A stretch of DNA of 36,275 nucleotides, from positions 1 to 36,275 of the forward strand of contig JAFAJV010000101.1 in assembly GCA_019235995.1 (NCBI GenBank), given 5' to 3'. A program made the position numbers and the translations under genes. This document shows positions 13,029 to 24,994 of this stretch, piece by piece. The DNA is from Vulcanimicrobiota bacterium. Its GTDB lineage: Bacteria > Vulcanimicrobiota > Vulcanimicrobiia > Vulcanimicrobiales > Vulcanimicrobiaceae. The notes beneath the pieces were generated by a model. That model was not told where the DNA came from. It saw only the letters and a list, made by a program, of their open reading frames with translations, and ran no database searches. Within the stretch, counting starts at the first letter, position 1. Every line of letters begins with the position of its first letter.

Positions 13029-13556
13029 ATGGAGAACTTGCCTCTACAAAGAGCGATCGGCTTGGCAATTGCGGCGCTCGCCTGGACCGCCTGCGGCGGA
13101 AGCAGCAGCGTGGCACCGCCGGCCGCAGCGCTACGGGTGCCCGCGATAGCGACCGGCGACGCGAGGATCTACAACGTCAGCGGCCAGTATGCCGGCACGG
13201 TGAAGGACAGCGTCTACGGTAGCGGCAAGGCCATCGGCGGTTTGGCTCAGTATCGCAACGCCGCAGGCGGAGTGCTGACGACGACATACGCCTCTAAAAC
13301 CATCACCCTTAGCCGGGTCTTTTCGCTCAGCGGGACGTCGCTGACTGGGACGGCCTCCGGGACCGCCGGCAAGCTCTCCTGCGTCTTTGACGAGAGCGCG
13401 ACGTACGAACCGTCCACGCACCGCCTTACCGGATCGTACCGCTCCTTCCACAATTGTGGCGGCGTGACCGAGAAGGGCACGTTCGACCTCAAGCAGCGCT
13501 GTTTTTACGCGCGCAACTGGGCGCGCAACGACGCCGGCGGCGTCAAGCAGTGTTAG
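13029..13556 (+). CDS. Small secreted protein, probable lipoprotein, unknown function
   Basis: A 175-residue protein. The N-terminus MENLPLQRAIGLAIAALAWTAC ends in a Cys22 followed by GGSSS, which looks like a lipoprotein signal, although WTAC is a weak lipobox. The rest is beta-rich (YNVSGQYAGTVKDSVYGSG, SLTGTASGTAGKLSCVF, HRLTGSYRSFHNCGG, KGTFDLKQRCFY) and has four further Cys that may pair. I do not recognise a family. Start is firm: AAGGAG at 13016-13021 lies seven bases before ATG. Divergent from the TonB receptor with a 96-base shared promoter region, and its stop overlaps the stop of the cyclase/NB-ARC gene by four bases (TTAG). Confidence 0.8.
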   Translation: MENLPLQRAIGLAIAALAWTACGGSSSVAPPAAALRVPAIATGDARIYNVSGQYAGTVKDSVYGSGKAIGGLAQYRNAAGGVLTTTYASKTITLSRVFSLSGTSLTGTASGTAGKLSCVFDESATYEPSTHRLTGSYRSFHNCGGVTEKGTFDLKQRCFYARNWARNDAGGVKQC

Positions 13557-16240
13557 GAAACCTCTGAGGCCTGCGCCACGGCTTGCTCCTCGCTCCACGC
13601 GGCGCCTTCCTCGAGCAGCCGCGTGACCTGCGACTTTTCGATCGTTCCGTAGAGCCGCTCGAAGAGGCGATCTACCAGCTCGCGCTCGTAGGGAACCAGC
13701 TGCCATTCCACGGCCCGCAGCTCCTCGCCGGCGTAGCCCATGAGCCGGGCCGCGCGGCTCGGATTGCGTCGCCCTTCGATCACGGCGAGATAGGTAATCG
13801 AGAGCGCGGTTAGAACGCGATGTCGGCCTTTGACCGCCGCCGCGAGCGACTGCCGCGCCGCCGCGTGCGCCCGGTCGAACTCGCCGGCAGCGAGCCAGTA
13901 GCCCGCGGCGTCGCTTGCCGTAAACATCGTCGCGGCATCGCGGCTGTCGAGGCGAATGGCCTCGTGCATCAGCTCGGCGGCGGCTCGAAAATCGCCCACC
14001 TCGGCTTCCCACTGCGACCACCACCCTAGTGCGCGGGCCGTCTCGTCGTCCCTCCCGAGCGCGCGAAAGAGCGCGACGCTCTGGTCGAAGCGCTCGCGCA
14101 CGGCATCTTGCCCCTCGCCGCCAAATGCCTGAGCGCATCGCCGCAGAGTGTCTGCCAAGAGCCGCCGATCCCCGCTGTCGCGCGCGAGGAGCAGCGCTTC
14201 CCCCGCCGCGGCTCCGGCTTCGTCGTAGCGCGCCTGCAGCGCGCAGCGCGCCGCGACCTGCGACAGTGCGCGGGTAAGGCCGCGCGCGTCGCCGGCCTCA
14301 CGGAAGAGCGCGGTCGCGAGCAATGCCTGTTCCAGCACCTTCTTGTTGGCGGCGAGGTTGCTGTAGAGCATCGATAGGCCGTATCGCAGGCGTGCCTGGA
14401 CGTCTATGCGCATCGCCGATTCATCGGAGAGAACTCGCTCGCACCACGCGCACCCCTCGTCGAGGAGAGCCAGACGCAGGAACGACGGCGCCGAATCCGC
14501 CGCCAAACGCGCTCCCAAGTCGCGATCGTTTCCCTCTTCGACGCTCCAGCGGAGCGCCGCGCGAAGGTTGGGAAGATCCCGCTCTGCGCGCGCGAGCCAA
14601 TCGGGCCGTGGGCCGAGATCCCACTCCGCATACGACGCGGCCGTAACCTCGCCGAAGGCGCGCGCGTGGCGGAGCGCGAGTTCGTCCGACTCTCCGCTCG
14701 CGCGAAGCTTTTCGGCGGCATACTCGCGAATCGGCTCGAGCAGCCGATAGCGCCGCCCCGGCTCTGCCGATTCGAGGACGATCAACGATTTATCGACGAG
14801 CGAGGAGAGGAGCTCGAGGACGGCCCATTTGCCGCTTCCGTCGTCGCAGACGCTGTTTGCGACATCGAGCGAAAAATCGCCCGCGAAGACCGAACAGCAG
14901 CGCAGGCAGCGCCGCTCCTCATCGGCGAGCAGATCGTAGCTCCAGTCGATGAGCGCGCGCATGGTCTGCTGACGCGGCCGCCGGTCGCGCCCTCCCGCGA
15001 GCATCGGCAGCTCCAAGCGCCGCGAGAGGTCCGCGAGCGACATCGTTCGCACGCGCGCCGCGGCCAGTTCGATGGCGAGCGCGATCCCGTCCAGCCTCGC
15101 GCAAATCGCCTCGATGCTCCGAGCGCCGGCGACGTCGTCGAAGTTCGTATCCGCGGCCCGGGCGCGATCCGCGAACAGGCGCGACGCCGCGACGAGATCC
15201 AGTGTCGATAAACGATACACGCGCTCGCCGGACACATCGAGCGGCTCGCGGCTCGTCGCCAGAACCTCGACGTGTGGACACCGGGCGACGACGCCGGCGA
15301 CGACTGCGGCGACGCCGGAGAGCAGATGCTCGCAGTTGTCCAGCACCAGGAGCAGCTGCCGCCTGCCCAAGTGGTCGAAAAGATCCTCCGCCGGCTCTCG
15401 GCCGGGAGAGGCCTGTGCCCCGAGGGCGGCGACGATCGCGCCGGGAACGAGCGCCGCGTTCGTGATCGCCGAAAGGTCGACGAACCAGGCACCGTCGCGC
15501 TCGTCGTTGAGCCGGCTCATCGCGACTTCGAGGGCGAACCGCGTCTTGCCGATGCCGCCCGCGCCGACGATCGTCACGACGGGGCCTGCGTCGAGGAGCG
15601 CCTCTGCGCGCGCGACGTCGTCCTCACGGCCGACGAAGCTGGTGGCCTGACGGGGAAGGTTGTTCGGTGGAGTCTCAAGCGCGCGCAGCGGTTTGAAATT
15701 GGAACGCAGTCCCGGCGCGATCGCCTGGAAGACGCGCTCGGGTTCCTTGAGGTCGCGCAGCGCGAGGGTGCCGAGGTGGCGCAGCGTCACTCCAGGCGGA
15801 AGCGTCGCCATCGCCATATCCGCCGCCAATCCCGAGAGCAAGATTTGGCCGCCGTGCCCCGCGGAGAGGAGCCGCGCCGTACGGTTGACCGAGGGGCCGA
15901 AGTAGTCCCCGGATCTTTCGTCCGCGTCGCCGGCGTGAATCGAGATTCGCACCAGGATCCCCGCGACGGCGCTGAAGTCCTCGCGGTCGAGTCGGCGCTG
16001 GATTTCTACGGCGGAATCAAGAGCTTCGCCGACGCTCGAAAAAGCCGCGCAAAATGCGTCGCCGATCGTCTTGAACACGTATCCGCGGCGTCGTTCGATC
16101 TCGTCGCGCAGGATCGCGTCGTGGCGCCGCAGCGCGTCGCGCATCGCCTCGCGCTCGGAGTCCCAACGCCGAGTGCTGCCTTCGATGTCGGAGAACAAGA
16201 AGGCGACCGTGCCCGTGGGAAAACCGTTCTCGCCGTTCAT
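13553..16240 (-). CDS. Class III adenylate cyclase / NB-ARC ATPase / TPR signalling protein
   Basis: An 895-residue cytoplasmic protein of three parts. Residues about 10-178 are a class III nucleotidyl cyclase. Metal Asp18 (FSDIEGST) and Asp61 (KTIGDAF), substrate-selecting Lys57 and Asp112 (GDYFGPSVNRTARL), and Asn119/Arg123 are all present, so it looks catalytically complete and ATP-selective. Residues about 196-470 form a STAND/NB-ARC ATPase with Walker A GAGGIGKT (226-233) and Walker B LLLVLDNCEHLL. The remainder is helical TPR-like repeats. This is the architecture of predicted cyclase-STAND regulators, in which the repeats would sense a ligand. I see no DNA-binding domain. ATG 16240 follows the aquaporin stop by 47 bases on the same strand, so the two may be co-transcribed. 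Confidence 0.9.
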   Translation of the reverse strand: MNGENGFPTGTVAFLFSDIEGSTRRWDSEREAMRDALRRHDAILRDEIERRRGYVFKTIGDAFCAAFSSVGEALDSAVEIQRRLDREDFSAVAGILVRISIHAGDADERSGDYFGPSVNRTARLLSAGHGGQILLSGLAADMAMATLPPGVTLRHLGTLALRDLKEPERVFQAIAPGLRSNFKPLRALETPPNNLPRQATSFVGREDDVARAEALLDAGPVVTIVGAGGIGKTRFALEVAMSRLNDERDGAWFVDLSAITNAALVPGAIVAALGAQASPGREPAEDLFDHLGRRQLLLVLDNCEHLLSGVAAVVAGVVARCPHVEVLATSREPLDVSGERVYRLSTLDLVAASRLFADRARAADTNFDDVAGARSIEAICARLDGIALAIELAAARVRTMSLADLSRRLELPMLAGGRDRRPRQQTMRALIDWSYDLLADEERRCLRCCSVFAGDFSLDVANSVCDDGSGKWAVLELLSSLVDKSLIVLESAEPGRRYRLLEPIREYAAEKLRASGESDELALRHARAFGEVTAASYAEWDLGPRPDWLARAERDLPNLRAALRWSVEEGNDRDLGARLAADSAPSFLRLALLDEGCAWCERVLSDESAMRIDVQARLRYGLSMLYSNLAANKKVLEQALLATALFREAGDARGLTRALSQVAARCALQARYDEAGAAAGEALLLARDSGDRRLLADTLRRCAQAFGGEGQDAVRERFDQSVALFRALGRDDETARALGWWSQWEAEVGDFRAAAELMHEAIRLDSRDAATMFTASDAAGYWLAAGEFDRAHAAARQSLAAAVKGRHRVLTALSITYLAVIEGRRNPSRAARLMGYAGEELRAVEWQLVPYERELVDRLFERLYGTIEKSQVTRLLEEGAAWSEEQAVAQASEVS

Positions 16241-16287
16241 GCCTACCGCCGGAGGATTCCGCCGCCTATCGGACAGCTCCGCCGCGC

Positions 16288-17007
16288 TTACTCGCCGCTG
16301 CCGGCCTTCCGCTCGCCCTGACGGGGCCGCACCGACAAGAACTGCATCGCCCCTCCAGCGAGCGCGGCGCCGACGCACGGGCCCGCAGCATAGATCCAGC
16401 TCAATCCGCTCAAGCCTCCGAGCAGCTGGGGCGGTATCGAGCGCGCAGGATTCATCGACGCACCGCTGATCGGCCCCGCGAAGAAGCCGCACGCCGCCAC
16501 CGTCAGGCCAACGGCGAGCGCCGCCTGCTTCCCGATGACCGACTCTTCCTCGGCGCACGTAAGGATCACGATCATCAACAAAAACGTCAGAACGATCTCG
16601 GCGACAAACGCCTCGAACTGCGTGTATTGCGGTCCCGGATGACTGGCCCCGAGGGCCAACTCCCTGCTCCACAGCGCCATCGCGAGCGCGGCCGCCGCAA
16701 AGCCGCCTGCAAACTGCGAAAGCCAATACCAGAGCATCTGCGCTGTCGGCATCGCTCGCCGTACGGCGAAGCCCAACGAGACGGCGGGGTCGATGTGTGC
16801 GCCCGAAATGTCCGAGAACGCGTAGATCATCGCTATGGTGACGAAGCCTCGCGCCAGCCAGCGGGAGACGTAATCCACGTGGCCGCCCGAGTAGTATCCC
16901 ACGTCCACGCCGGTCGCGACGAGCGTCACGAAAAACGTGCCGAGGAACTCCACGCCGGCCTTCTGCGGCAGCGATGGCTTGCCGGCATTAACCACCCTCC
17001 GTCCCAT
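16288..17007 (-). CDS. MIP-family aquaporin with a DPA first signature box
   Basis: A 239-residue protein with six hydrophobic segments plus the two re-entrant loops of major intrinsic proteins. The first loop reads SGAHIDPAVSLG (Asp73 where aquaporins have Asn of NPA) and the second reads SGASMNPARS (Asn186, with the pore Arg189). The GAC codon for Asp73 is at 16791-16789. MIP proteins pass water, glycerol or other small neutral solutes across the inner membrane; the paired NPA Asn residues cap the half-helices and help exclude cations and protons, so an Asp here is notable. ATG 17007 has only a weak purine stretch upstream. The next gene downstream is the cyclase/NB-ARC protein, which hints at osmotic or solute sensing, but that is inference. 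Confidence 0.9.
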   Translation of the reverse strand: MGRRVVNAGKPSLPQKAGVEFLGTFFVTLVATGVDVGYYSGGHVDYVSRWLARGFVTIAMIYAFSDISGAHIDPAVSLGFAVRRAMPTAQMLWYWLSQFAGGFAAAALAMALWSRELALGASHPGPQYTQFEAFVAEIVLTFLLMIVILTCAEEESVIGKQAALAVGLTVAACGFFAGPISGASMNPARSIPPQLLGGLSGLSWIYAAGPCVGAALAGGAMQFLSVRPRQGERKAGSGE

Positions 17008-17643: not shown

Positions 17644-19175
17644 TTCGTGCGGCGGATCAACGGGACGACGGGCCGGGAGAGCACTGCGACCAGCTCCGCC
17701 CGGCTCTTGACGTTGAACGTCTGGAAGAGCTGCGCGAGCTGATTACGCACGGTGTGCGGGCTTCGCCCGAGCACACGCGCGATCTCAGAGTTCCGCCGGC
17801 CCGCACGCACGAGCTCCAACACCTCACGTTTTGCAGGCGGAATACGCTCCAACGGGACTACGGCTGCGCTGCCGGCTTCCGCGATGCGACGCGCGATCCA
17901 GCTGCGCGGCCACGGATCGATCTTCCGAGCGGCACGGTGAACCCATCGTCGATCCCGCGTGGCCTCGAAGAGTCCGAGCGCGCAGAGCGCGGCGCGCCAC
18001 GCGTAGTTGAAATCCTCGAAGATGTCCCAGGCCTCGGTCAATGCCGCCTTCCCCTCACCGGCATCGCCGAGGCGCAGCCATGCGACGCCCTGCGAGTATG
18101 CCTCGAACCCCCGAACTCGAGGGTCTGTGCCGTAAGAGAGGAGCGGGATGACGGACGCGGTTAGCGACCGGAAGCGCGCGAGATACTGCTCCGCGATCGC
18201 GGCGTTCTCGTAGGCGAACAGCTCGGCCAGGACGAGCAGCGCCGAGCGCTCCTCGCCGGTGACCTCGTTCCAAGAGACGCGCTGTGCGATCTCATGCGCA
18301 TCTTGCAGCTGCTCGGCCGCGAACGCCGTCTCGCCCGTGTTTTTCGCAAGGAGCGCTCGATCCAGGAAGCAGAGCACGCTCCAGTGCTCGGACGGGGCAA
18401 GACGTGTCGCCTTCTTGAAGCCCGCAAATGCGGCTAGCTCGTTGCCTTCCAACTCCTCCATCGCGGCGATGAAGCGCGTGATCTGGAAGTGCGCGAGCTG
18501 GAGACCCGGCGTCCACGGCATCGCATCGAAGATGCTGCGCACGCGCTCGGCGACGTCGCGTAGCGGCAGCTCGCGGCATAGCAGCGCGAGCGTGAACAAG
18601 GCGTTTGCTCGAAAATATTGGTCGGGCTCGGGTGCGACGTCGAGCTCATCGAGCGCCTTCTGCAGCTCATCGACCTGCCGTAGGACCTCGCCGCGCCGCA
18701 AGGCGATCCAGGAAAGCACGATGCGGGCGCGCGCGCGATTGTTCGGATCGGAGGAGTTCAGCTGCACGGTTGCGGCGTCTTCGGCTTCGCGATGCTCGTG
18801 CTGCATCCACGCGATGGCCGCCTTGTGGTAGAACGCTTCGTCGTAGAGCGGGTCGCCCGGCGCGAGATCGTTGAGCGCCCGGTCGATCAGCCGGCGACCG
18901 GCGACGTAGTCTCGCGTCGAGCCCAGTGCCGCGCCGAGCAGCACGTCGCGCTCCGCGCGCATCGCTACCGGAGCCGCTGGGAACTCCGAGAGCGCTCCGA
19001 TAACGTCAACGAACCGCCGCTCGCGGATCGCGAGTCGAGCGGACGCGAGCGCTCCTTCGAGCGCATCGCCCGCCTGAATTAGGTCACGACAGCGCTCATA
19101 ATCTGCGGCCTTGAGCGCACTCTCGAATTCGTCGTGGTCGAAACCCGGACGAGCCTGTCTAACGGTTATGTGCAT
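17640..19175 (-). CDS. LuxR-type regulator with a helical-repeat N-terminal sensor region
   Basis: A 511-residue protein. The C-terminal 65 residues or so are a LuxR-type helix-turn-helix (PPAKREVLELVRAGRRNSEI ... LGRSPHTVRNQLAQLFQTFN ... RAELVAVLSR). The first 430 residues are almost wholly helical and rich in Ala/Leu/Arg, with helical pairs about 34-40 residues long that look like TPR/MalT-type repeats (FYHKAAIAWMQHEHREAEDA is one). There is no receiver domain or Walker motif, so it would be controlled by binding a ligand or peptide to the repeats. ATG 19175 has GGGG seven bases upstream. The 86-base gap to the repeat lipoprotein upstream on the same strand allows co-transcription. Convergent with the DJ-1/PfpI gene. 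Confidence 0.87.
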   Translation of the reverse strand: MHITVRQARPGFDHDEFESALKAADYERCRDLIQAGDALEGALASARLAIRERRFVDVIGALSEFPAAPVAMRAERDVLLGAALGSTRDYVAGRRLIDRALNDLAPGDPLYDEAFYHKAAIAWMQHEHREAEDAATVQLNSSDPNNRARARIVLSWIALRRGEVLRQVDELQKALDELDVAPEPDQYFRANALFTLALLCRELPLRDVAERVRSIFDAMPWTPGLQLAHFQITRFIAAMEELEGNELAAFAGFKKATRLAPSEHWSVLCFLDRALLAKNTGETAFAAEQLQDAHEIAQRVSWNEVTGEERSALLVLAELFAYENAAIAEQYLARFRSLTASVIPLLSYGTDPRVRGFEAYSQGVAWLRLGDAGEGKAALTEAWDIFEDFNYAWRAALCALGLFEATRDRRWVHRAARKIDPWPRSWIARRIAEAGSAAVVPLERIPPAKREVLELVRAGRRNSEIARVLGRSPHTVRNQLAQLFQTFNVKSRAELVAVLSRPVVPLIRRTN

Positions 19176-19260: not shown

Positions 19261-19521
19261 TTAGCCTCCGCGATGTTTCGGTAGGCCGCCGCCGACCGAG
19301 TCGAGATGATGCATCCGAAGATCCGTCTTCGGCAAGCCACCCCCGACGGAGTCGAGGCGGTGCACCTTCGAGTCGCCCTTCGGCAGGCCGCCCCCGACGG
19401 AATCGAGCGAGTGCAGCCGTGCGGCCGGGAGCAGCGATCCGCCGCCCATGGAACCCCCGGCACACCCGCCGAGAACCGCCGCACAGAGGACGAGGGAGAG
19501 CGCCGCAATGCTCTTACGCAT
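19261..19521 (-). CDS. Small lipoprotein with three 17-residue LDSVGGGLPK repeats
   Basis: An 86-residue protein. MRKSIAALSLVLCAAVLGGC is a textbook lipoprotein signal (lipobox LGGC, Cys20). A short Gly/Ser spacer follows, and residues 36-86 are three exact-length 17-residue units with the pattern [LVM]-H-x-LDSVGGGLPK, the first two continuing [GT]-D-x-[KR] and the last ending HRGG. The core is identical in all three units although codons differ. A good ribosome-binding site (AAAGG, about 10 bases before ATG) supports translation. I do not recognise the family. Possible roles are a surface anchor, a binding scaffold, or a precursor of repeated peptides released by a Lys/Arg-specific protease; none is proven. 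The LuxR-type regulator follows 86 bases downstream. Confidence 0.8.
   Translation of the reverse strand: MRKSIAALSLVLCAAVLGGCAGGSMGGGSLLPAARLHSLDSVGGGLPKGDSKVHRLDSVGGGLPKTDLRMHHLDSVGGGLPKHRGG
19264..19416 (-). repeat. Three tandem 51-bp coding repeats (LDSVGGGLPK units)
   Basis: Units at 19416-19366, 19365-19315 and 19314-19264. Within the ten-codon LDSVGGGLPK core, units 1 and 2 differ at three codons and units 2 and 3 at five, all silent. That pattern points to selection on the peptide rather than a fresh DNA duplication. Confidence 0.85.
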
Positions 19522-19563
19522 TATTCTTACCTTTCAACGCCAGGAGGCGCCAGGAAGCACAAA

Positions 19564-19585
19564 TAGTAGTACGAATATACTAGTA
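19564..19585. other. AT-rich imperfect inverted repeat in the divergent intergenic region
   Basis: TAGTAGTA-CGAATA-TACTAGTA: two 8-base arms with one mismatch around a 6-base loop, in an AT-rich stretch between the repeat lipoprotein and the HAF-repeat gene. It could be an operator or a hairpin in a leader. No known regulator motif is recognised. Confidence 0.35.
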
Positions 19586-19612
19586 CCAAAAAGCCTCCAA
19601 GGATAGGGCCGC

Positions 19613-19640
19613 TTGGCACACTTTGCATCACTACTAATAA
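19613..19640 (+). promoter_or_regulatory. Candidate promoter of the HAF-repeat lipoprotein gene
   Basis: TTGGCA (19613-19618), a 16-base spacer and TAATAA (19635-19640) resemble a sigma70 promoter. It would give a leader of about 125 bases that contains the stem-loops at 19678-19735. Confidence 0.4.
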
Positions 19641-19677
19641 ACCTAGCGGAACGATGATTGCCATCAGAGCAAGGGCG

Positions 19678-19773: not shown

Positions 19774-20799
19774 ATGTCTTACTCCTTTTTCGGAACGCGA
19801 AAGGGGCGGTATGCCTCTGTCCTCGTGGCTATCTGTGCCGCCGTCGTGGCGGCCTGTAGCGGACCGTCGCCCCTCACGCCCTCCCAGCAGACCGCTTCGG
19901 GCCTAAGGGCCGTCCCGGCGACCAAGCCGTCGCCCACGCCGTATTCCTTCTCGTTCACCACCGTGGACGACCCGGGGAGCACCTCGTTCAACTGGGCCAC
20001 CAGCATCAACGAGCTCGGCGCGATCTCCGGCAATTACGGAACCGGCTCGACGAGCGACCCCAGCCATGGGTGGACCACGATGCCGCCCTATACCAAGTTC
20101 CGGCAGCTGGACTACCCCGGTGCCGTCAACACCTACCTGATGTCGATGAGCACCGACCATCTCCGTGCCGGCTATTTCCTCGACAACACGCAGCAGCACA
20201 ACACGTGGGGGTTCGTCCAGAATCGCGGCATCTTCACGCTGTACAAGGACTTCAAGACGCCGAAGGAGCCCGGCTTCATCGACCAGCTCCTCAGCATCAA
20301 CGGCTCGGACATCGCCGTCGGCTATTATGAGGATGAGTACGGCAACGATCAGCCCTTCGAGCTCATCGTTGCGCTGAACAAGTACACGCCGTTAACGCCT
20401 CCCGACGCGCTGAGCGCTCAGCCGAACATCGTCAACCTGCGCGGCGACATCGCCGGGACCGAGACGACGAAGGGCGGAGTCACCCAAGGCTGGCTCCTGC
20501 GCGGCGGCAAGTACACGACGTTCTCCTATCCGGGCTCGACGAGCACGCAGGCGATCGGACTCGACTTCGAGGAGCAGGTCGTCGGATCGTACGTCGATAG
20601 CGGCGGCGCGACCCATGGATTCATTCTGACCAACCCGATGAGCCCAAGCGGACAGTACTGGCAATCGGTGGACGAGCCCGGCGCGGCCGGTACCACCGTC
20701 ATCACCAGCATTAACGCGCAGCACGCGCTCGCCGGGTGGTACGTCGACTCCGCGGGCAATCGCCACGGATTCACGGCCGTCGTGAGCGGCAGCAAGTAG
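19774..20799 (+). CDS. HAF-repeat lipoprotein, unknown function
   Basis: A 341-residue predicted lipoprotein (signal ending VVAAC, Cys28). After a Pro/Thr/Ser-rich linker the protein is made of repeated units around 40-50 residues, containing motifs such as DDPGSTSFNWATSINELGAI, TSINAQHALAGWYVDSAG, and HGFILT or HGFTAV. That matches the extracellular HAF-type repeats found in soil bacteria, which probably fold as a beta-propeller. No catalytic motif is seen. ATG 19774 has AGAGGA eight bases upstream. It is preceded by a long structured leader, unusual in this compact region, so post-transcriptional control is plausible. Convergent with the phosphoesterase array. Confidence 0.85.
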   Translation: MSYSFFGTRKGRYASVLVAICAAVVAACSGPSPLTPSQQTASGLRAVPATKPSPTPYSFSFTTVDDPGSTSFNWATSINELGAISGNYGTGSTSDPSHGWTTMPPYTKFRQLDYPGAVNTYLMSMSTDHLRAGYFLDNTQQHNTWGFVQNRGIFTLYKDFKTPKEPGFIDQLLSINGSDIAVGYYEDEYGNDQPFELIVALNKYTPLTPPDALSAQPNIVNLRGDIAGTETTKGGVTQGWLLRGGKYTTFSYPGSTSTQAIGLDFEEQVVGSYVDSGGATHGFILTNPMSPSGQYWQSVDEPGAAGTTVITSINAQHALAGWYVDSAGNRHGFTAVVSGSK

Positions 20800-20834: not shown

Positions 20835-22184
20835 TCACTCCGCGTCGACGACGTGATGGTCGGGCGGCTGCCGTAGGAAGTAGCCGCGGTCGTAAGGACT
20901 CTGAATCGGAACGAACTTCCGCGGCGGCGCGTTGAAGTCGAAGCAATCTTGCGCCGGGGAGTTGGCGCGCGCGTCGCTCGCGCTGAGCCGGCCTAACCCG
21001 AACGTATCCTCGGCGAACTTCAGAATGCTTCCGTGCTCGTACTCCACGTGCGAGATGCGCCCGTGCCGAGCGTAGGGTGAGATGACGAGCAGCGGGAGGC
21101 GCATGCCGAGGCCATCGTAATCGGCATACGGCTGCGGGACCGGGTCGTACCAGCCGCCGTAGTCGTCCCAGAAAACGAAGATCGCGCTCGAGTTCCAGTA
21201 CTGCGACTCACCGACCGCGTTGACGACCGACGCGACCCACGACGGACCCGTGTTGGAGTTGTTGCCGGCATGGTCGGAGTTGGTCCAGGTCGGAGTCACC
21301 CAGCTGACCGAACGCAGCTTGCCGTTCGCGACATCGGTCAAGAATTGCGAGGGCTGCGTGATGACGTCTTTCTTCCAGTCGGGACCGCCATAGATGTGGT
21401 TGATCGCCTGGTACGCGCTCCAGATGCCGGGGCTGCCGCTCGAGTATCCGACCGCGTAAAACGCCCACGAGACGTGCGCCGCGTCGAGCTCGTCGCCGAG
21501 CGTGGTCGGATCCCAGCACACGGCTTCGGGTTTGCTGTAGAGGATCTGCCGCTGCTGGCCGAGCGTGTAGATTTGGTCGCTCGGGCCCCCGGGGCAGCCC
21601 CAGGCGGTGTCCGGGAAATTGACGGCGGACTCCGCCTGACCCGCGATGATGTACTGATGTGAGATGAAGCTGCTCGCGTCGAAGTTCGAGGCGAACATGT
21701 GGTCGGCGAGCACCCACTCCCGGGCCATGTCGAAGTACGGCTTGGTCTCGGCGTGCGGCACATAAGCGTACTGCGGGTGCTTGTTCGGGCAGCCGAGACC
21801 GCAGCGAAGTCCCTCCCGATTGAAACCGTTGTTCTTGCAGTGCGTGCCCGGGATGCTCCCGGTGCCGTTGCACGCCTCGATGTCGCCGTAGGAGTCGTGC
21901 TCGACGTCCCACGACGTCTCGAGCGGAATGGGCCGCAGCTCGATCTTGTCGCCGTTGGTGTCGTAACCGTACTTGGCGGTCGTCGCGCCCCTGTAGCCGT
22001 AGAAGAGATTGTTGAAGCTGCGGTTTTCTTGAACGACGACGATGATGTGCTTGATCTTGCCGCTCGCTACGCGCGGTTTCGCCCGGTCTGCCAGCGACAC
22101 GCCGGGCGACACCGCCGGGCCGCCCGCGTTGCAGGCGGCCAGCAGCAGCGTCGCGGTAGCACAGGCGAGGGCACGTTTCGTCAC
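20835..22184 (-). CDS. Phosphoesterase-family lipoprotein, tandem copy 3 (distal)
   Basis: A 449-residue lipoprotein (lipobox LAAC, Cys18) of the phospholipase C/AcpA phosphoesterase superfamily. It has HIIVVVQENRSFNNLFYGYR, FASNFDASSFISHQYIIAG, TNSDHAGNNSNTGPSWV, FVFWDDYGGWYDPV and LPLLVISPYA in family order. Cys pairs in the ACNGTGSIPGTHCKNNGFN region and the CGLGC motif are shared with its two neighbours and likely form disulfides outside the cytoplasm. The canonical DHV after the DD-containing motif is DPV here. GTG 22184 overlaps the stop of copy 2 by four bases (GTGA), so it depends on translation from upstream. The short mature linker has lost the Gly-rich spacer seen in copy 2. Confidence 0.9.
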   Translation of the reverse strand: MTKRALACATATLLLAACNAGGPAVSPGVSLADRAKPRVASGKIKHIIVVVQENRSFNNLFYGYRGATTAKYGYDTNGDKIELRPIPLETSWDVEHDSYGDIEACNGTGSIPGTHCKNNGFNREGLRCGLGCPNKHPQYAYVPHAETKPYFDMAREWVLADHMFASNFDASSFISHQYIIAGQAESAVNFPDTAWGCPGGPSDQIYTLGQQRQILYSKPEAVCWDPTTLGDELDAAHVSWAFYAVGYSSGSPGIWSAYQAINHIYGGPDWKKDVITQPSQFLTDVANGKLRSVSWVTPTWTNSDHAGNNSNTGPSWVASVVNAVGESQYWNSSAIFVFWDDYGGWYDPVPQPYADYDGLGMRLPLLVISPYARHGRISHVEYEHGSILKFAEDTFGLGRLSASDARANSPAQDCFDFNAPPRKFVPIQSPYDRGYFLRQPPDHHVVDAE

Positions 22185-23584
22185 TCGGCGTCCACGACGT
22201 GGTTGTCGGGAGGCTGATGCAGGAAGAACGCCCTTCCGTACGGCGCCTGGATCGGAACGAACGAGCGCGGCGACTGTGCGAAGTTGAAGCAGTCGCGTGC
22301 CGGCGACTTCGCACGCGCGTCGCTTTTCGACAGGCGCCCCAACCCGAACGTGTCCTCGATGAACCGTAGCAGGCTCCCGTGCTCGTAATGAACGTGCGAG
22401 ACGTAATTTTGCTTTGCGTACGGCGAGATGACCAGCAGCGGCAACCGCATCCCGAGGCCGTCATAATCGGCGTATGGCTGCGGCACCGGATCGTACCAGC
22501 CGCCGTAATCGTCCCAGAAGACGAAGATTGCGCTGGAGTCCCAGTACTGCGATTGGCCGATCGCGTTGACGACGGACGTCACCCACGACGGCCCCGTGTT
22601 GGAGCCGCTGCCGGCGTGGTCCGAGTTCGTCCACGTGGGCGTCACCCAGCTGACCGAGCGCAGGTTGCCGTTGGCAACGTCGGTGAGAATCTGCGACGGC
22701 GAGTGCATGATGTCGGTGCCCCAGTCCGGACCGTTGTAGATGTGGTTGATGGCCTGATAGGCGACCCAGAGCCACGGATTCCCCGAGTAAAACTGGCCGT
22801 AGAACGCCCATGAGACTTTCGCGTTGTCGAGCTCGTCGCCGAGCGTCGTGGGATCCCAGCAGACCGTTTCGGGCTTGCTGTAGAGAATTTGCCGCTGCTG
22901 CCCGAGCGTATAGATTTGGTCGGATGGACCGCCGGGGCAGCCCCAGGCGCCGCCGGGATAGTTGACGGCCCCCTCGGCCTGAGCCGAGATGATGTACTGG
23001 TGTGAGATGAAGCTGCTGGCATCGAAGTTGGAGGCAAACATCCGGTCGGCTAGCACCCATTCCTGCGCCATCTCGAAGTACGGCTTCGTCTCGCTCTGCG
23101 GCACGTAGGCGTACTGCGGATGCGGGATCGGGCAGTTGCTGCCGCAGTAGGCCTGCTCGTTATTGAAGCCGTTGTTCTTGCAGTTCGTGCCCGGGATGCT
23201 GCCGGTGCCGTTGCAGGCCGCGATGTCGCCATACGAGTCGTGTTCGAGGTCCCAAGTCGTCTCGAGCGGGATGGGCAGCAGCTTGATCCTTTTGCCGCTG
23301 GAGTCGTAGCCGTACTTGGCGGTCCTGGCGCCTTTGTAGCCGTAGAAGAGATTATTAAAACTGCGGTTCTCTTGCATGATGATGATGATGTGTTTGATCT
23401 TGCTGCTCGCCCCCCCACGCGGAGCGGGCTCACGTTCGAGTGAGTCGCGAGCGTTCTGCTGGGTCTGGTGGTTCGCGAGCGGCAGGCCGGGCGAGACGCC
23501 GGCGCCGCCGCCGTTACAGGCGGCGAGAAGACCCGCCAGTGCTGCCAACGGCAGCGTTTGGCGGGCACGCTGACTGAAATGCAT
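22181..23584 (-). CDS. Phosphoesterase-family lipoprotein, tandem copy 2 (middle)
   Basis: A 467-residue lipoprotein (lipobox LAAC, Cys23) with the same domain and motif order as copies 1 and 3: HIIIIMQENRSFNNLFYGYK, NFDASSFISHQYIIS, TNSDHAGSGSNTGPSWV, FVFWDDYGGWYDPV and LPLLVISPYA. It is very close to both neighbours through the catalytic core, and differs mainly in the linker after the lipid anchor (about residues 24-58) and in loop residues. ATG 23584 has AAGGAG ten bases upstream and lies 18 bases after the copy 1 stop. The trio therefore reads as one operon made by successive tandem duplication. Substrate unknown; a phosphate ester or phospholipid is likely from the family. Confidence 0.9.
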   Translation of the reverse strand: MHFSQRARQTLPLAALAGLLAACNGGGAGVSPGLPLANHQTQQNARDSLEREPAPRGGASSKIKHIIIIMQENRSFNNLFYGYKGARTAKYGYDSSGKRIKLLPIPLETTWDLEHDSYGDIAACNGTGSIPGTNCKNNGFNNEQAYCGSNCPIPHPQYAYVPQSETKPYFEMAQEWVLADRMFASNFDASSFISHQYIISAQAEGAVNYPGGAWGCPGGPSDQIYTLGQQRQILYSKPETVCWDPTTLGDELDNAKVSWAFYGQFYSGNPWLWVAYQAINHIYNGPDWGTDIMHSPSQILTDVANGNLRSVSWVTPTWTNSDHAGSGSNTGPSWVTSVVNAIGQSQYWDSSAIFVFWDDYGGWYDPVPQPYADYDGLGMRLPLLVISPYAKQNYVSHVHYEHGSLLRFIEDTFGLGRLSKSDARAKSPARDCFNFAQSPRSFVPIQAPYGRAFFLHQPPDNHVVDAE

Positions 23585-23602
23585 GGAAAATCTCCTTGTT
23601 GG

Positions 23603-24994
23603 TTATTCCGCGTCCACGACGTGGTGATCGGGCGGCTGATGCAGGAAGAACGCTCTGCCGTAGGGAGCCTGGATCGGCACGAACGGTCGCGGCGACTGCC
23701 TAAAATTGAAACAGTCGCGCGCCGGAGAGTTCGCGCGGGTGTCGCTGGCCGCGAGCCGGCCCAGCCCGAATGTGTCCTCGACGAACTTCAGAATGCTGCC
23801 GTGCTCGTACTGCACGTGCGAGACGCGCCCGTGCCGAGCGTAGGGCGAGATCACGAGCATCGGTATGCGCATGCCGAGGCCGTCGAGATCGGCGTAGGGT
23901 TGCGGTACCGGATCGTACCAGCCGCCGTAGTCGTCCCAGAAGACGAAGATCGCGGTCGAATCCCAGTACTGCGACTCGCCGATCGCGTTGACTACGGACG
24001 TGACCCACGACGGCCCTGTGTTCGAGCTGCTGCCGGCGTGATCGGAGTTCGTCCAGCTCGGCGTCACCCAGCTCACCGAGCGCAGGTTGCCGTTCGCGAC
24101 GTCGTTGAGGATTTGCTCCGGCGGGCTGATCATATCTTTGCTCCAGTCCGGGCCCGTATAGATGTGTTTGACGGCCTGGTATGCCACCCAGATGAACGGG
24201 TAACCGGAATAGATCTCGCCGTAGAACGCCCACGAAACGCTCGCCTTATCGAGCTCGTCGCCGAGCGTCGTCGGATCCCAGCAGACGACCTCGGAGCCGG
24301 AGGGCTGGCGCTGCGGTCCGACCTCCGAGATCATGTCGCCGGGACCGCCGGGACACCCCCACGGACCGCCGGGGAAGTCGATCGCCTTCTCCGCCCAACC
24401 GGAGATGATGTACTGGTGTGAGATGAAGCTGCTCGCGTCGAAATTCGAAGCGAACATGTGGTCGGCCAACACCCACTCCTTAGCCATGTCGAAGTACGGC
24501 TTGGTCTCACTATGCGGAACGTAGGCATACTCGGGGTGCTTGATCGGACAGCTCCCATAGCATCCGACGCCCTCGAGATTGAAGCCGTTGTTGCGGCAAT
24601 TCGTGCCCGGCAGGCTACCGGTGCCGTCACAGGCCGCGATGTCGCCGTAGGAGTCGTGCTCGACATCCCACGAGGTCTCGAGCGGAATCGGCAGCAGCTT
24701 GATCTTTTGGCCGTAGCTGTCGTAGCCGTAGCGAGCCGTCGTCGCGTTCTTGTAGCCGTAGAAGAGGTTGTTGAAGCTGCGGTTCTCTTGAACGATGATG
24801 ACGATGTGCTTGATCTTGCCGTTCGACGGCCCATGCCCGACGCGCTGGAGCGCCGGCGCTACGCGCGAGTTCGGCTGATTCGGCAGCGGCAGGCCGGGCG
24901 AGACGCTTGCGCCGCCGCCGTTGCTACAGGCTGAGACGGAAAGCACGAGGGCCGCAACGCAGAGCGTCCGGACCCCGAGCGAGATGGAGTGCAT
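23603..24994 (-). CDS. Phosphoesterase-family lipoprotein, tandem copy 1 (promoter-proximal)
   Basis: A 463-residue lipoprotein (lipobox VSAC, Cys23) of the same family: HIVIIVQENRSFNNLFYGYK, NFDASSFISHQYIISGWAEK, TNSDHAGSSSNTGPSWV, FVFWDDYGGWYDPV and IPMLVISPYARHG. The insert near residue 240 reads DMISEVGPQRQPSG where copies 2 and 3 have DQIYTLGQQRQILYSK, a likely substrate-specificity loop. The ATG at 24994 is preceded by AAGGAG, but that site lies inside a strong inverted repeat whose arm ends directly at the start codon (24995-25037). First gene of the operon, so control here would set the output of all three. Confidence 0.9.
   Translation of the reverse strand: MHSISLGVRTLCVAALVLSVSACSNGGGASVSPGLPLPNQPNSRVAPALQRVGHGPSNGKIKHIVIIVQENRSFNNLFYGYKNATTARYGYDSYGQKIKLLPIPLETSWDVEHDSYGDIAACDGTGSLPGTNCRNNGFNLEGVGCYGSCPIKHPEYAYVPHSETKPYFDMAKEWVLADHMFASNFDASSFISHQYIISGWAEKAIDFPGGPWGCPGGPGDMISEVGPQRQPSGSEVVCWDPTTLGDELDKASVSWAFYGEIYSGYPFIWVAYQAVKHIYTGPDWSKDMISPPEQILNDVANGNLRSVSWVTPSWTNSDHAGSSSNTGPSWVTSVVNAIGESQYWDSTAIFVFWDDYGGWYDPVPQPYADLDGLGMRIPMLVISPYARHGRVSHVQYEHGSILKFVEDTFGLGRLAASDTRANSPARDCFNFRQSPRPFVPIQAPYGRAFFLHQPPDHHVVDAE

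Follow-up and report, generated by a model that had tools for sequence, protein, structure and literature searches.

Peptide quorum sensing through intracellular receptors has been described as a Firmicutes trait (PMC10075063, PMC9765709). RRNPPA regulators, surveyed in Firmicutes, carry an N-terminal HTH or a three-helix bundle (PMC9765709), repeated Phr cores are known (PMC5199041), and RRNPP systems have been given a five-criterion signature (PMC10075063). Here we analyzed a 36,275-nucleotide stretch of DNA (the window) whose host belongs to Candidatus Eremiobacterota, as does the record holding the best-matching locus. We consider it likely that a repeat lipoprotein and an adjacent regulator encoded in the window form a two-gene peptide-signalling unit, precursor plus TPR-LuxR receptor, and that this unit is one of a family of RRNPP-like private channels. 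The candidate precursor has the following features:

19261..19521, reverse strand: gene of the putative precursor lipoprotein, 86 aa (translation; orthologues in at least 13 genomes of the same genus)
19462..19521, reverse strand: signal sequence and lipobox, MRKSIAALSLVLCAAVLGGC (sequence; lipobox conserved in orthologues)
19378..19407, reverse strand: repeat core 1, LDSVGGGLPK
19327..19356, reverse strand: repeat core 2, LDSVGGGLPK (three silent codon differences from core 1)
19276..19305, reverse strand: repeat core 3, LDSVGGGLPK (five silent codon differences from core 2)

The export signal was judged from sequence and hydropathy, and comprises a hydrophobic signal and the lipobox LGGC. 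The three identical cores start at residues 39, 56 and 73, a period of 17 residues, and a 51-bp array at 19277-19415 was found independently by Tandem Repeats Finder. Neighbouring cores differ in eight codons in total, every difference being silent. A preliminary description, made from the letters alone, had placed the reading frame, the lipobox and the spacing of the three units correctly to the base, and its count of silent differences was exact. It had also recognised no family for the protein, which holds for Pfam and NCBIfam: neither a structural lipoprotein family, a match it had set against a signalling role, nor any other family matched there.

The reading frame is genuine: it is preserved, together with the lipobox and the repeats, in an orthologue of 72% identity and in no fewer than 12 other homologues from the same genus; a chance or non-coding ORF was ruled out on the same grounds. 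Same-genus orthologues conserve the signal, the lipobox and an SLLP spacer, carry 2-13 copies of a [DT]SVGGGxP-like core that differs by species (DSVGGGLPK, DSVGGGPP, SVGGSIPS, VVGGGPTPAG), and reach lengths of up to 203 aa versus 86 aa in the window. The terminal lysine or arginine that had been read into the units is not conserved, K/R after the core being absent in most homologues. Inside precursors, pS between copies was mostly about 0.25-1.0 and replacement changes were almost nil. Locating the copies by their peptide pattern pushes pN down and partly builds in pN = 0, so that pS is the informative number. The high pS shows that the copies are old and that the peptide has been kept; such strong divergence at silent sites also rules out a recent slippage artefact.

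Next on the same strand, beginning 85 bp downstream of the lipoprotein gene, is the LuxR-type helical-repeat regulator that the preliminary description had pointed out, here termed P0002:

17640..19175, reverse strand: TPR/LuxR regulator P0002, 511 aa, proposed receptor (adjacent in 11 of 11 orthologous loci)
17868..19136, reverse strand: predicted TPR superhelix of P0002, residues 14-436 (AlphaFold2 pLDDT 91; profile match to consensus TPR chains, 9e-33)
17682..17828, reverse strand: LuxR/GerE DNA-binding domain of P0002, residues 450-498 (Pfam GerE, 1.5e-8)

The AlphaFold2 model of P0002 (55 homologues) predicts an all-helical superhelix over residues 14-436 followed by the HTH, with a mean pLDDT of 91. 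Foldseek with P0002 returned many TPR proteins, among them Rap bound to the pheromone CSF (4gyo, rank 24), a match consistent with a peptide receptor but unspecific among TPR folds. Pfam detected HTH domains only and no ATPase domain in P0002, its NCBIfam MalT match is restricted to the HTH, and plasmid relatives gave HTH-domain matches only. In all 11 orthologous loci where the contig continues, the regulator stands directly downstream of the repeat lipoprotein; at L057, L058 and L060 the contig stops inside or just after the repeats, and the regulator sits at the edge of another contig. Motif homologues lacking a neighbouring regulator, which had been named beforehand as an outcome against signalling, did not occur among these loci.

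Other genes surround the pair. A regulator with an adenylate/guanylate cyclase domain and an NB-ARC-like ATPase (13553-16726, reverse strand) lies downstream of it in most orthologous loci, and an aquaporin (MIP family) gene (16288-17007, reverse strand) lies between the two regulators. A divergent secreted protein of about 340 aa with no Pfam match (19777-20799, forward strand) is conserved in six orthologous loci. Three tandem secreted phosphoesterase-type proteins, one confirmed as PF04185, are encoded at 20835-24994 (reverse strand); copies recur beside the lipoprotein in relatives, and these proteins could be targets of the system.

The 5' region of the lipoprotein gene is more conserved among orthologues than the protein tail, and contains the following elements:

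19530..19535, reverse strand: Shine-Dalgarno sequence GAAAGG (sequence; conserved in 13 orthologues)
19531..19557, reverse strand: predicted 5'UTR hairpin over the Shine-Dalgarno sequence (RNAalifold, 13 orthologues: 9 pairs, 2 with two-sided changes)
19567..19587, reverse strand: conserved promoter block GGTACTAGTATATTCGTACTA, direct repeat GTACTA-N8-GTACTA (near-invariant in 13 orthologues)
19609..19649, reverse strand: conserved inverted-repeat block CCGCTAGG...CCAAGCGG, possible operator

The GGTACTAGTATATTCGTACTA block is present as a single exact copy in the genome, with no second copy at up to 3 mismatches. A known RNA element upstream of the lipoprotein gene was ruled out, since Rfam gave no match for the upstream region or the 5'UTR hairpin. 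The unique conserved promoter block also suits a simpler arrangement of regulator and target, in which P0002 controls the adjacent surface lipoprotein and the Gly/Pro repeats are structural or ligand-binding and carry no signal to the regulator. Adjacent pairs of this kind are common, and a surface role suits the lipid anchor.

The peptide-signalling reading was assessed at paralogous loci, because orthologous neighbours alone would be no evidence, given general genomic synteny. The survey covered Eremiobacterota, where distant homologues of P0002 (23-38% identical) occur across the class, including other genera and a further family of the order; the DNA upstream of them was examined independently of the lipoprotein sequence. 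Most distant regulators are immediately preceded by a short ORF that encodes a signal peptide or lipobox and that ends in or repeats a motif of its own, built on the pattern D-[STG]-x-GG-x-[PM]. Paralogous regulators whose upstream sequence is unrelated also carry short secreted D..GG ORFs, a test that the preliminary description had not foreseen. The motifs, with their loci, are as follows:

TDGGGSMP, twice: L083-085
NDSGGIMTGD: L090, L092 and L094
DTSGGPM, three times: L089
DTPGGPIP, three times: L100
MDSVGGMSGG: L087
GDSVGGGPG: L093
STHGGAVD, eight times: L108
DTIGGGF, three times: L181
EGSHPPY, three times, and DGTLPPY, twice: L078 and L080, another family of the order

L085 (G000:C131) is a second pair in the same genome as the window. 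Putative precursor ORFs span 35-200 aa, and the two that were scanned had no curated family match. In the single-copy precursors L087, L088 and L093 the motif is at or near the C-terminus. At L104, an ORF lying some 300 bases upstream of the regulator has a tail built on an entirely different repeat, IASWGAIIVG, present twice; L024/L091 were readable only partly, owing to masked bases.

One fixed scan was applied to the distant regulators, to other genes, to antisense regions and to other LuxR genes. An upstream signal ORF was present at 33 of 45 distant regulators versus 12 of 109 other locus genes, 4 of 56 antisense regions and 5 of 38 other LuxR genes; a signal ORF with the D..GG motif was present at 27 of 45, versus 3 of 109, 0 of 56 and 1 of 38, respectively. 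The low rates at other LuxR genes rule out a general property of such genes. Since the first set had been inspected before the motif was defined, only the rates from a held-out set are clean. Among 48 held-out loci from previously unused genomes, with the rule unchanged, 24 had the signal ORF and 21 the motif (antisense: 4 and 1). The held-out motif rate exceeds that at other LuxR genes with a Fisher p of 9e-6, calculated on loci that are phylogenetically related.

Several regulators lacked a detected precursor: the subclades L068/70/71/82, L075/77/79 with relatives, and L106/110/112, and the same-genome paralogue G000:C2. L067, which has no upstream ORF, has a precursor-like convergent ORF about 80-320 bases downstream that ends in KPMDTAGGDPG; it was the one ORF found in a downstream scan of 12 precursor-less loci, five of which had fewer than 400 bases downstream. 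About a dozen of the held-out negatives form one subclade (L158-L165, L168-L173), whose regulators have a larger secreted-protein gene, encoding a carboxypeptidase-like tail, immediately upstream and no short precursor. No family member was found in G025, a complete 3.5-Mb one-contig genome.

Motif type follows the regulator tree. When the window orthologues were collapsed, the Mantel correlation was -0.60, a value that 0 of 5000 permutations reached; among regulators less than 45% identical it was -0.34, which 1 of 5000 reached. This co-variation shows a stable pairing of motif and regulator, short of proof of contact. It also argues against the regulator-and-target arrangement, since motif divergence tracks the regulator. 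In addition, the precursors L087, L088 and L105, which fit a signal sequence and a single C-terminal motif into 38-65 aa, are too small for a structural role, and many precursors are not lipoproteins (L083-085, L089, L100, L108). We therefore regard that arrangement as unlikely, though as the strongest of the alternatives. The suggestion in the preliminary description that the repeats bind a shared ligand is likewise the poorer fit, given precursors of as little as 38 aa that hold a single C-terminal motif.

A secretion-monitoring arrest peptide was also considered, in which the Gly/Pro motif stalls the ribosome and the export state sets translation of the regulator, as SecM does for secA. The signal peptide, the GG.P/PP motifs near the C-terminus and the fixed position upstream of a controlled gene would fit such a device. 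SecM-type peptides, however, have a single arrest motif, and a lone arrest site would have no use for as many as 13 tandem copies. Often the motif also lies well away from the stop codon (L095, L097), the gene that follows encodes a regulator and not an export factor, and the L067 precursor is downstream and convergent. We consider this explanation very improbable. Least probable by a small step is a modified, RiPP-like or antimicrobial product whose multiple cores are secreted under the adjacent regulator: multi-copy cores and saturated silent divergence also occur in multi-core natural-product precursors, but no maturase or immunity gene was recognised among the inspected clusters common to orthologous loci (regulator, cyclase/NB-ARC regulator, phosphoesterases, lipoproteins), and most RiPPs do not typically carry a Sec/lipoprotein signal.

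In the peptide-signalling system that we propose, the lipoprotein would be a Sec-exported, lipid-anchored polyprotein precursor whose tail holds several copies of about DSVGGGLPK. Proteolysis in the envelope would cleave the precursor and release the peptide, and an oligopeptide transporter would return it to the cytoplasm; such import is possible because the host genome encodes ten SBP_bac_5 peptide-binding proteins. The peptide would then bind in the groove of the P0002 TPR superhelix and alter the activity of the C-terminal LuxR DNA-binding domain. P0002 would probably also control the precursor's own promoter, and the circuit may serve density sensing. A lipid anchor is an unusual starting point for a freely diffusing signal. 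The preliminary idea that the repeat peptides are read by the helical-repeat regulator gains support from the 11/11 adjacency and the paralogous loci; release and binding are what we infer. Since the arrangement recurs in dozens of Eremiobacterota paralogous pairs with clade-specific peptides, the pairs would constitute a family of private channels.

We found no paper in open-access PMC that describes this system. With somewhat less assurance than for the signalling unit itself, we lean towards an undescribed pheromone family, with intracellular TPR-LuxR receptors, lipid-anchored or Sec-exported D..GG polyproteins and several private channels per genome, in a diderm and evolved separately from RRNPP. 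If this is true, Eremiobacterota possess a second version of the design, rearranged in structure, which would suggest that the design has multiple origins and operates across two membranes. One of the least studied soil phyla would also gain a predicted communication code, testable with synthetic peptides. Similar systems may be missed elsewhere, because the precursors are 35-200 aa ORFs and the two scanned fall in no curated family.

Among known regulators, MalT-type LAL proteins resemble P0002 in joining a superhelix of helical repeats to a GerE HTH at the C-terminus. MalT binds a sugar and is not known to have a precursor encoded next to it, and P0002 differs in having no N-terminal ATPase domain detected by Pfam. 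Fungal alpha-type pheromone precursors are likewise polyproteins in which one peptide recurs several times and is conserved at the protein level; they are eukaryotic and read by a surface receptor, so the likeness is an analogy only. Closest are the RRNPP/RRNPPA systems (Rap-Phr, NprR-NprX, PlcR-PapR, Rgg-SHP, PrgX, AimR), with which the pairs share a small exported propeptide gene adjoining the gene of a cytoplasmic TPR protein, a C-terminal and sometimes repeated peptide, a DNA-binding or effector output of the TPR protein, and paralogous expansion with clade-specific peptides. Four of the five elements of the RRNPP signature (PMC10075063) are found here: a propeptide of 10-100 aa (86 aa, some orthologues being longer, up to 203 aa); its export, for which a lipoprotein tag counts at the 'relaxed' level; adjacent propeptide and receptor genes (85 bp, and 11/11 orthologous loci); and a TPR superhelix, predicted from the AlphaFold2 model, TPR profile matches and Foldseek TPR matches including Rap-CSF. 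The fifth, a receptor of 250-500 aa, is marginally exceeded by the 511 aa of P0002. Unlike in RRNPP, the host phylum is the diderm Eremiobacterota, within which the survey was made, rather than Firmicutes; the HTH of the window regulator is LuxR/GerE-type and C-terminal (residues 450-498); and the precursors are lipoprotein or Sec substrates with up to 13 copies of D..GG peptides, nearly always encoded upstream. We conclude that the precursor/TPR-LuxR pairs work like RRNPP systems but are not RRNPPA members, because their HTH is LuxR-type and C-terminal, as opposed to the N-terminal HTH or three-helix bundle of RRNPPA, and because the phylum differs.
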